From positions 252,924 to 316,923 of the forward strand of contig WLPX01000001.1 of the NCBI GenBank assembly GCA_009698575.1: a DNA stretch of 64,000 nucleotides, written 5' to 3'. Below the pieces are notes generated by a model. The model was not told the DNA's origin. It made no database searches and worked only from the letters and a program-made list of their open reading frames with translations. Positions 9,196 through 45,008 of this stretch are shown here, one piece after another. This DNA is from Actinomycetota bacterium. Lineage in GTDB: Bacteria; Actinomycetota; Actinomycetes; S36-B12; UBA5976. Numbering within the stretch: position 1 is the first letter of the stretch; every line of letters starts with the position of its first letter. Position numbers and translations under genes: made by a program.

Positions 9196-9716
9196 GGCGC
9201 AGTTGCCTTCGTTAGGTGGAATGAGGCATGTGACTTCATAGTCTGCCCTTCGGCCGCCATGTCATAAACCCAACCGATGTTGCCATCTACTAGGCCATAA
9301 ATTCGTTCACCCGAGTCAACTTGTTTAGCTGAAGCAGTTCGCAAAATCGCATCTGTCTTTAACTCAACCCGCGCGCCAGTGATCTGGGCATTTTCTAAAC
9401 CAGTAATCGTAACTTTGCCAAACCAAGATTCTAAGAATCCCGTTGGATGCGCCAGCAGAAATTCAACTTCGTTGTTAGGTCGTGGGCGCCAAAATCCACT
9501 TTCTAATGCAAGTGGCCGAACTCGCTCGCCTTCATCATCCAACTCCCAAGTGCGAGACCAGTGAATCAAAAATGGTCGGCCGTCCGAGTGAATGCTTAGT
9601 TCCTGGCCCACTTGAATATCAGATTCCATACTTGGATATCCAACAACGCCTACGCCTACCCAGGTGCCGACCAGCCAGGACAATGGCGCTAAATCAGGAT
9701 GGAGTTTCGTAGTCAC
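9192..9716 (-). CDS. Nitrobindin-like haem-binding beta-barrel protein (FABP/THAP4 family)
   Basis: 174-aa single-domain protein. The N-terminal LVGTWVGVGVVGYPS loop is the nitrobindin signature (GxWxGxGxGxYP), and the C-terminal segment with His near MKSHASFHL supplies the expected haem ligand. Family members bind ferric haem and scavenge or isomerise peroxynitrite. GTG start at 9716 overlaps the stop of the small upstream ORF, giving one unit with the peptide gene, fur and ygfZ. Confidence 0.85.
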   Translation of the reverse strand: MTTKLHPDLAPLSWLVGTWVGVGVVGYPSMESDIQVGQELSIHSDGRPFLIHWSRTWELDDEGERVRPLALESGFWRPRPNNEVEFLLAHPTGFLESWFGKVTITGLENAQITGARVELKTDAILRTASAKQVDSGERIYGLVDGNIGWVYDMAAEGQTMKSHASFHLTKATAP

Positions 9717-9814
9717 GCTTGGCCCTTGAAAAGTTTGTAAACCATGTAGCTGGCATAGCCCGTTATGGACAAGGACGACACAACTAACAACCCGGTGTAA
9801 AACGTCTCAGCCAT
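9713..9814 (-). CDS. 33-aa single-pass membrane microprotein, unrecognised
   Basis: A short frame with ATG at 9814 and TGA at 9713-9715; the stop overlaps the GTG start of the next gene, a coupling typical of real genes. The peptide is a hydrophobic helix (about residues 7-28) flanked by acidic MAETF at the N-terminus and Lys at the C-terminus (YKLFKGQA), a membrane topology with the tail in the cytosol. I do not recognise a family. The case rests on position, coupling and composition. It may anchor or regulate the haem-protein operon, which is inference. Confidence 0.6.
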   Translation of the reverse strand: MAETFYTGLLVVSSLSITGYASYMVYKLFKGQA

Positions 9815-9875
9815 GTCTCCAAGTCTATCTGGCAAGTATTCTCGAACTAGCAACTAAGCCGACGGAAGAGGACTT

Positions 9876-10307
9876 ATGGAAAGCGCAAAAGTAAAAGAGA
9901 TTTTGCAATCGGCTAAAACTGTCGCAGTAATCGGCGTCTCCGGAAAGCCCGATCGCGCTAGCCATCAGGTTGCTGCCTATTTGATCGAACAAACACATTT
10001 TGATGTCTACCTAATTAATCCAGCGACAACTGAAGAGATCCTTGGCCAACAGGTTTATAAGTCATTGGCAGAGTTGCCGATAGTTCCCGACATCGTGAAT
10101 GTCTTTAGAAAAGGCGAAGATATGCCTGGGGTATTTGCAAAGGAATTCCCAGCAATTGAAAATCAAGCAGCTGGAAAAACTTGGTGGATGCAACTTGGGA
10201 TTGAGAATCAAGACGTTGCCAAACTTGCAAGTGATGCTGGCATGCAAGTTGTCATGAATCGATGTATCAAAGTTGATTACCAGAATTTTATTGCGGAAGG
10301 CAAGTAG
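9876..10307 (+). CDS. CoA-binding domain protein (YccU family)
   Basis: 143 aa made of one Rossmann-type CoA-binding domain. Features: TVAVIGVSGKPDRASHQVA at the N-terminus, the INPATTEEILGQ turn, and PDIVNVFRK; these are the standard YccU/CoA_binding motifs. Function is not established, though succinyl-CoA synthetase-like CoA binding is predicted. The downstream cysteine-containing segment (MNRCIKVDY) matches the usual family C-terminus. Monocistronic, ending at a terminator shared with DUF1416. Confidence 0.85.
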   Translation: MESAKVKEILQSAKTVAVIGVSGKPDRASHQVAAYLIEQTHFDVYLINPATTEEILGQQVYKSLAELPIVPDIVNVFRKGEDMPGVFAKEFPAIENQAAGKTWWMQLGIENQDVAKLASDAGMQVVMNRCIKVDYQNFIAEGK

Positions 10308-42732: not shown

Positions 42733-43017
42733 TTAACCACCAGCAACTGCAGGAACTATCGAAACAGTCACGCCAGCTGGAGTTGGTGTTGAAAGGCCAT
42801 CTAGGAATCGAACGTCATCATCATTGACATATACATTCACAAAGCGTCGTAATTCTCCAGTGTCGGAGATTACTCGCTGCAAAATTCCAGGTGCCATAGC
42901 TTCCAGGGCATCAAGTACACCCTGCAGAGTTTCTGGGTTTGGTTCTAGTTCAACTGTTGATTGATCGGACACATATGCCCGCAAAATTGTTGGGACTCGG
43001 ACAGTTACGCTCATCAT
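42733..43017 (-). CDS. MoaD/ThiS-family sulfur-carrier protein
   Basis: 94-aa ubiquitin-like protein ending in Gly-Gly (PAVAGG), the residue pair that is adenylated and thiocarboxylated. VNVYVNDDDVRFLDGLST and VSIVPAVAGG are typical of MoaD/CysO relatives. Coupled to thrC by ATGA overlap, so the carrier is translated with a PLP enzyme, not with molybdopterin genes. A role like CysO (sulfur donor to a PLP synthase) is inference. Confidence 0.85.
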   Translation of the reverse strand: MMSVTVRVPTILRAYVSDQSTVELEPNPETLQGVLDALEAMAPGILQRVISDTGELRRFVNVYVNDDDVRFLDGLSTPTPAGVTVSIVPAVAGG

Positions 43018-44282
43018 GCACCTTCGATAACTCTTGCAACGGATTCAACATTTGGAGTAATGGTTGCAGTGAAACCATTACCAGTGGATACCGCGTCAAG
43101 GGTTTTAAGCCCTTCACCAGTATTTACAATCACAGTTTCTGCAGTTGGATCTAGCAGCCCTTGTGCCAATAACTTTCGTGTCACGGCAACGGTTACGCCG
43201 CCAGATGTCTCGCCAAATATTCCTTCGCACTCAGCCAACAATCGGATGCCTTCCACAACTTCTTCGTCAGTGACATCGCCAACTGCGCCATTTGTGCGAC
43301 GCACTGCATCTAGTGCATACGGACCATCAGCTGGGTTTCCGATTGCAAGTGATTTGGCAATGGTGTCGGGTTTAACTGGACGCACTACTTCGCTGCCATC
43401 AGCCCAAGCAGTTGATACTGGATTGCATCCAGTTGCTTGTGCGCCGAATACGCGCCATTGTCGATCCGGAACTAAACCAAGTTCTACAAATTCGCGCCAG
43501 CCTTTGTCGACTTTAGTTAACAGCGCGCCGGAAGCCACTGGAATCACAACTTGGTCAGGAAGTCTCCAGCCGAGTTGCTCGGCAATTTCGTAACCAACCG
43601 TTTTAGAACCTTCGGCATAGTAAGGCCGCAAGTTAACGTTTACGAATCCCCAGTTAGCAGAAACTTCTTCGCCAATTAATTCCCCGCAAAGGCGATTCAC
43701 GTCATCGTAGTTTCCTTCGATGCCAATCACGTGACCGTTGTAAGCAGCGGTTGCTTGAATTTTGTTTTGCTCCAAATTCGATGGAACTAAGACAACTGAT
43801 TTTTGTCCAGCACGTGCGGCAGCAGCTGCAACCGCGTGTGCCAAGTTCCCAGTTGAAGCACATGCCAAAGTGTCAAAGCCAAGTTGAATGCCGGCGCTTT
43901 GTGCCACAGCAACAACGCGATCTTTGAATGAGTGCGTTGGGTTTCCGCTGTCGTCTTTAACCCAAAGCGTGCCGGTGATGCCAAGTGCTTTTGCCAAATT
44001 GTCAGCGCGATGAAGGCGAGTCATGCCAGGCGCTAAGTTACGAGACTCGGCGATGTTCGCTGGAACTGGCAAAAGCGCCGCATAACGCCACAAAGAGAAC
44101 GGACCCGATTGGATCTGTTCTCTTGTTACGGTGCCGAAGTCATATGCCACTTCAAGTGGGCCAAAACATTCCCAACAGGAATAGTCGGCGCCAAGTTTTG
44201 CATGCGCGCCACAAGCACGACAGACCAAGTGAGTTGCCGCACCAAATGGTGCAGTATCGATTTTTTCTAGTGTTACAGACAT
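43014..44282 (-). CDS. thrC: Threonine synthase (PLP), zinc-ribbon type, riboswitch-controlled
   Basis: 422 aa. N-terminal zinc ribbon (CRACG at about 21-25 and CWEC at about 36-39), then a fold type II PLP domain: PLP-Lys in THSFKDR, ASTGNLAHAVAA phosphate loop, and GGVTVAVT. Converts O-phosphohomoserine to threonine. Preceded by a SAM riboswitch and followed by an overlapping MoaD-like gene, neither expected of a plain threonine gene. Alternative use in sulfur assimilation is possible (see findings). The SD AAAGG lies just after the riboswitch P1 helix. Confidence 0.85.
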   Translation of the reverse strand: MSVTLEKIDTAPFGAATHLVCRACGAHAKLGADYSCWECFGPLEVAYDFGTVTREQIQSGPFSLWRYAALLPVPANIAESRNLAPGMTRLHRADNLAKALGITGTLWVKDDSGNPTHSFKDRVVAVAQSAGIQLGFDTLACASTGNLAHAVAAAAARAGQKSVVLVPSNLEQNKIQATAAYNGHVIGIEGNYDDVNRLCGELIGEEVSANWGFVNVNLRPYYAEGSKTVGYEIAEQLGWRLPDQVVIPVASGALLTKVDKGWREFVELGLVPDRQWRVFGAQATGCNPVSTAWADGSEVVRPVKPDTIAKSLAIGNPADGPYALDAVRRTNGAVGDVTDEEVVEGIRLLAECEGIFGETSGGVTVAVTRKLLAQGLLDPTAETVIVNTGEGLKTLDAVSTGNGFTATITPNVESVARVIEGA

Positions 44283-44298
44283 TGAGCTGGAAGCCTTT

Positions 44299-44427
44299 CG
44301 TCATCTCTACTAAAAACAGCAAGCTGTCTTTAGTCGGAATTGGCACCGGGTCGCAAGGCCTTAACGGTTCTGCGGTGGTTGCCGGGGCTTCAACGGGCCG
44401 TTCCCTCTGCCCCTCTGGATGAGGTGT
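44299..44427 (-). promoter_or_regulatory. SAM riboswitch (S-box; SAM-I or SAM-IV) upstream of thrC
   Basis: On the minus strand the core is nearly consensus: CAGAGGGG CAGAGGGAACGGCCC, TTGAAGCCCCGGCAACC, GGTGCCAATTCC. Helix P1 pairs TCATC (near 44422-44418) with GATGA (near 44305-44301). P4 is a ten-pair stem (CTAAAGACAG / CTGTTTTTAG) around CTTG. thrC's SD follows P1 directly, so SAM binding may block translation. Class I versus IV needs a covariance search. Confidence 0.9.
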
Positions 44428-44528
44428 ATTTAGTTTTTAGAAGCGGTAAACCGCGTCCGTGGAAAAACTGTATCAGGGCTGGGGGAAAAAGCAATTTCGA
44501 GTATCAATTCGTGATAAATGATCACGAA

Positions 44529-45008
44529 TTATTTAATAATCACCAAAGTTAACGCGGTTTGGCTCAAATCTGCTGGGGCCTCGACTAATGTGCCACCGGT
44601 CTGGGTAGCCAACTCTTCGGCCGAACTCAACTCGTTAGCTGGATAAAAAATTGTGGTTTCCAATAGTGGCTCACCGGTCCAGTTGCCAGTCTCTTCCACA
44701 ACCCAATCCGCATCGTGCAATTCATCACTCATGGTTTTTGCAAGTCCTGCAGTTTGTGTTCCGTTAAGAACGATAACTGGAATCCGACCGTTTGCATCCA
44801 GGTTTGCACCTGCTGATCCGCTTGGCAGCGCTGAAGGCATCACTGGTATTGACGGTTCTGCGGATGCGGATATGGTTGGTTCGGCGGCAACTGGATTGGG
44901 ATCAAGTTTCCAGAGTTTGTAGCCAACTAGAAAAAGCACGCTCACAGTTGCCAAAATTACAACTGCAGGGACAGTTACTCGTTGATGAAAAGTTTGGCCG
45001 CCAGGCAT
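44529..45008 (-). CDS. LytR C-terminal domain protein
   Basis: 159 aa: one N-terminal membrane helix (about 14-30), a Ser/Pro/Ala-rich linker (35-70), and a LytR_C domain beginning VIVLNGTQTAGLAKTMSDEL. Extracytoplasmic, likely envelope-related; binding partner unknown. Located directly downstream of DUF3263, an actinobacterial pairing. Confidence 0.85.
   Translation of the reverse strand: MPGGQTFHQRVTVPAVVILATVSVLFLVGYKLWKLDPNPVAAEPTISASAEPSIPVMPSALPSGSAGANLDANGRIPVIVLNGTQTAGLAKTMSDELHDADWVVEETGNWTGEPLLETTIFYPANELSSAEELATQTGGTLVEAPADLSQTALTLVIIK

Follow-up and report, generated by a model that had tools for sequence, protein, structure and literature searches.

The stretch of DNA analysed here (64,000 nucleotides; hereafter the window) very probably carries a metM-metO operon, a homocysteine synthase system controlled by SAM, whose function we infer from homology and genome context. 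It is almost certainly one more instance of a system reported in 2024 and not a new kind of system. The operon lies in a source genome of 1.70 Mb (30 contigs, 92% complete). A sequence-only reading had described a near-consensus SAM riboswitch ending beside the Shine-Dalgarno sequence of thrC, which in turn overlaps a MoaD-like gene ending in Gly-Gly, and each of these elements is borne out. The covariance model search recovered RF00162 over its full length (model positions 1-108) with 67.8 bits and an E-value of 1.1e-13, against a gathering score of 44.4 bits. The riboswitch sits immediately 5' of the ThrC-like gene, with the Shine-Dalgarno sequence abutting it and overlapping its last bases. 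The ThrC-like and carrier reading frames overlap by 4 nt, and the carrier C-terminus reads AVAGG.

Table 1. Location of the features discussed in the text (positions are those of the window; carriers are given by locus).
Feature	Position	Strand	Basis
metO-like gene, beta-grasp sulfur-carrier protein, 94 aa	42733-43017	-	Pfam ThiS; CysO 3dwg
metM-like gene, ThrC-like PLP enzyme, 422 aa	43014-44282	-	PALP and TIGR00260 matches
Shine-Dalgarno GAAAGG	44294-44299	-	sequence; last two bases of riboswitch P1 stem overlapped
SAM-I (S-box) riboswitch aptamer, operon leader	44298-44425	-	Rfam RF00162
Empty metX-metY counterpart site	9714-9875		tblastn synteny of G001:C44 against the window
Carriers with residues past Gly-Gly (among others)	L034, L042, L045, L046, L048, L077, L091, L106, L112, L119, L124		

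From its match to RF00162, the window's riboswitch is predicted to bind SAM and to change expression in a SAM-dependent manner; it is the sole SAM riboswitch detected across the searched part of the source genome. No terminator-like hairpin was found between the aptamer and the start codon (44200-44700 searched), and across 39 inspected leaders the P1 3' strand leads directly into the Shine-Dalgarno region, with the start codon soon after. Control is thus likely to operate at the level of translation. RNA folding of the leader left the Shine-Dalgarno sequence partly paired both with and without P1.

The ThrC-like protein exceeds the cut-off of the general thrC model (TIGR00260, 258 bits against 167) and matches PALP with 225.8 bits, and among solved structures it is nearest in sequence to threonine synthases (2zsj, 6cgq, 1uim). 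MetM shares with canonical threonine synthases (2zsj, 1uim, 2d1f) the PLP fold and, as a likely substrate, O-phosphohomoserine. In contrast, it presents NPTHSFKDR and PVASGALL where the canonical enzymes have NPTGSFKDR and PVGNAGNI, and it carries an additional N-terminal segment with four cysteines, CxxC...CxxC in the window's protein. All 110 MetM proteins (110/110) contain NPTHSFKDR, whereas the source genome's own ThrC has NPTGSFKDR and is 32-33% identical to the window's protein; MetM orthologues elsewhere are about 63-96% identical to it. We predict that the window's gene encodes a putative O-phosphohomoserine-dependent homocysteine synthase. The "threonine synthase" label of the general thrC model would then mislead for the MetM clade, with consequences for the prediction of methionine and threonine pathways in Actinobacteria.

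The gene content of the remaining genome bears directly on this assignment. A separate and complete hom-thrC-thrB operon resides on contig C23 (L009), its ThrC reaching 305 bits with TIGR00260, so that the second thrC with hom and thrB sought by the sequence-only reading does exist and the window's gene is not the only thrC. The genome also has a CysM-CysO pair with an adjacent JAB-domain (Mec+-like) gene on C6 (L015) and a MoaD beside moaA/moaE-like genes on C10 (L017). Given the separate CysO and MoaD, the window carrier is a third carrier of this genome. The locus could in theory encode a second ordinary threonine synthase, set by SAM to split homoserine between threonine and methionine, with a carrier serving molybdopterin or cysteine synthesis. 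The score above the general thrC cut-off favors this, as does a Microcystis homologue that yields some threonine at high substrate (PMC12172450). However, a threonine operon is already in place, the CysM-CysO-Mec+ cluster and MoaD already fill the proposed jobs of the carrier, and repression by SAM is usual for a methionine gene but hard to explain for a threonine enzyme. We reject a second ordinary threonine synthase because of the separate operon, the SAM control and the low identity to the genome's own ThrC; the explanation as a whole is very unlikely. The steering of homoserine flux between threonine and methionine by SAM, also suggested from the sequence, stands as a consequence of the homocysteine synthase assignment, not as a rival to it.

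The homocysteine synthase assignment has a published counterpart. According to the passages of PMC12172450 that cite Hasebe et al. 2024 (AEM 90:e01247-24), the enzyme identified as MetM in Streptomyces strains is a homocysteine synthase and forms homocysteine from O-phosphohomoserine. Those passages also describe S. albulus metM as preceded by a SAM riboswitch, and S. albulus metO as related to the sulfur-carrier gene adjoining thrC in Microcystis (PMC12172450). The proposal that the ThrC-like enzyme may use carrier-bound sulfur and O-phosphohomoserine to make homocysteine therefore gains support from the reaction published for Streptomyces MetM, as described there, and is consistent with the separate thrC and with the searches for MetX and MetA described below, which found neither gene in the source genome. 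The sequence-only reading had expected a notable link; the link itself is upheld, its novelty is not, given its prior publication by Hasebe et al. 2024 as cited in PMC12172450.

For the window, we infer the reaction, the loading enzyme and the translational mechanism as follows. A MoeZ-type E1/rhodanese enzyme would most likely load sulfur onto the C-terminal Gly-Gly of MetO as a thiocarboxylate, while Hom and ThrB would supply O-phosphohomoserine. MetM would then swap the phosphate of this substrate for the MetO sulfur, giving homocysteine that would be methylated to methionine. With plentiful SAM, the riboswitch would lower the output of the operon, probably by making the Shine-Dalgarno sequence beside P1 less accessible to the ribosome. 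In the Streptomyces system, metO reportedly lies downstream of metM and its product is said to be the thiocarboxylated sulfur donor.

Regarding the loading step, most relatives encode a MoeZ-type E1. In one of these (G013) its gene is about 15 kb away from a ThiF-like gene, and the orthologue of that ThiF-like gene is found on contig C1 of the source genome. The searched part of the source genome gave no match to a MoeZ-type E1, but the syntenic place on C1 (within C1:58000-76000) reads N; we thus do not take this negative as a true absence of MoeZ. Since the mycobacterial MoeZR sulfurates not only CysO but also MoaD1 and MoaD2 (PMC3227635), a single E1 serving several carriers is plausible by analogy.

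To what extent is this arrangement shared? The metM-metO pair with a SAM riboswitch is widely recurrent in Actinobacteria. A MetM-like gene occurs in 37 of 60 relatives, partial copies counted. SAM riboswitches were found in 33/37 metM-positive genomes versus 3/23 metM-negative ones (Fisher p 3e-9, a guide only, the genomes being related), and in 26 of the 30 relatives' loci fetched the riboswitch lies directly upstream of metM. The riboswitch of the metM-negative G012 is located at a contig end and has the same kind of neighbor gene; that of G050 is also at a contig end. Given these positions, both may represent cut metM loci. In G041, without metM, a SAM riboswitch (G041:C19:22530-22613, L154) is found upstream of an NMT1-type ABC transporter. 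A search of the collection gave 80 named loci with MetM identities of about 63-70%; most are from Streptomyces, Actinomadura, Streptosporangium or Microbispora, or from MAGs, some of them Candidatus Nanopelagicales. Those Streptomyces proteins that come with this operon and riboswitch are about 63-67% identical to the window's MetM. The riboswitch precedes metM in 20/20 named actinobacterial loci scanned, which come from Streptomyces, Actinomadura, Nanopelagicales MAGs and others, and a simple script found a downstream carrier in 68/80 named loci, ending in AVAGG with at most two residues after it. With the gene linked to a SAM sensor in many families, genome context independently backs the MetM/MetO pathway published in 2024.

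The carrier of the window matches Pfam ThiS with 53 bits, its closest solved structure being M. tuberculosis CysO (3dwg, E 9e-20), and shares 49% identity with the genome's own CysO. Relatives in sequence suffice to settle the folds of both MetM and the carrier. In 76 of 82 cases, carriers at the metM loci of other families are closer to the window carrier than to the CysO of the genome. This bears on a different scenario, in which MetM, acting on O-phosphohomoserine, would draw its sulfur from free sulfide or some other thiol donor and the carrier would be an accessory only. A Microcystis test with Na2S as the sulfur source, which gave an unidentified product peak (PMC12172450), speaks for such a donor; the adjacency of carrier gene and metM across many families and the closeness of their carriers argue against it, leaving this scenario a very small chance. 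A main role in threonine/serine deamination or some other side activity has been argued for the Microcystis homologue, which has threonine-deaminase activity and apparently does not fully work as MetM in cells (PMC12172450); this behavior also counts against the homocysteine synthase assignment. Such a main role is extremely improbable here, the genome encoding a separate 403-aa IlvA-like protein (L008) and the SAM riboswitch not fitting such a role.

Some metO carriers bear one or two residues past the Gly-Gly (C, A, AR, Q, AV, AQ, AG or M), implying a putative trimming by a JAMM-type protease before loading. In G026, from the same family, metO forms an in-frame fusion with a ParA/MinD-type P-loop ATPase (L158:227-1450, minus strand, 407 aa; ThiS at 5-94, AAA_31 at 160-314). 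The Gly-Gly is internal in this fusion and would need cleavage. In G032, of the same genus as G026, the ATPase is encoded by its own gene immediately downstream, and the carrier has the C-terminus AVAGGC (L034:3057-4136). The SAM riboswitch is absent from both the G026 fusion locus (L158) and the G032 locus (L034).

Returning to the predicted homocysteine synthase, we considered the alternative routes to methionine in the source genome. MetX gave only a 19.6-bit partial match in the searched genome, versus about 388-434 bits in the relatives that have it, and MetA was not found in any of the 60 genomes. Neither a MetE domain (PF01717) nor a full-length MetH was found in the searched source genome, and these absences are provisional, 12,000 of the 18,001 bases of C1:58000-76000 (L066) reading N. 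The window itself provides an additional clue. The genes flanking metX-metY in the congener G001 have their orthologues side by side here, at 9207-9713 and 9876-10295 on an unbroken contig, and nothing aligns in the gap. Here metM would stand in for the missing metX/metY, whose empty site is visible in the same window. Over the 60 genomes, 13 have both MetM and MetX (metX being found in 13/37 metM-positive genomes), 24 MetM only, 14 MetX only and 9 neither (Fisher p 0.065). In the 34 genomes at least 90% complete the corresponding numbers are 12, 12, 9 and 1 (Fisher p 0.051), so that 33/34 have at least one of the two routes. We reject the notion that MetM and MetX exclude each other strictly enough to count as strong proof, since the pattern is a trend only (Fisher p 0.05-0.07). 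The genome also encodes one Cys_Met_Meta_PP protein of the cystathionine gamma-lyase/synthase kind (C7), through which a transsulfuration route is possible in principle. Two stand-alone homocysteine S-methyltransferase genes were identified (C4:24563-25411 and C1:340437-341270; L159, L160). It is conceivable, though rather unlikely, that MetM/MetO is the sole source of homocysteine here and that a stand-alone homocysteine S-methyltransferase also replaces MetE/MetH in the last step. If so, the two final steps of methionine synthesis would both depart from the textbook scheme.

The locus can be compared with known systems. It resembles most directly the Streptomyces MetM/MetO system, with which it shares a ThrC-like enzyme, a sulfur-carrier gene, an upstream SAM riboswitch and orthologous proteins; it differs in belonging to another lineage, with a 1.7-Mb actinobacterial genome, and in that its activity is a predicted one. 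An upstream SAM riboswitch is no strict requirement for such a system, and lack of the MetX/MetA acyl-homoserine route is common in it without being obligatory. In the CysM-CysO-Mec+ system of M. tuberculosis, as proposed for the window, a carrier with a C-terminal Gly-Gly feeds a PLP enzyme of fold type II. The product of CysM is cysteine, made from O-phosphoserine, whereas MetM is ThrC-like, and the window carrier is only 49% identical to the genome's own CysO. The HcyS/HcyD/HcyF system of Wolinella, which acts with MetY, also uses a protein thiocarboxylate as the sulfur donor for homocysteine, as proposed for MetM/MetO. Nevertheless, it relies on the MetY fold and an acylated homoserine, unlike the ThrC-like enzyme and O-phosphohomoserine of MetM/MetO.
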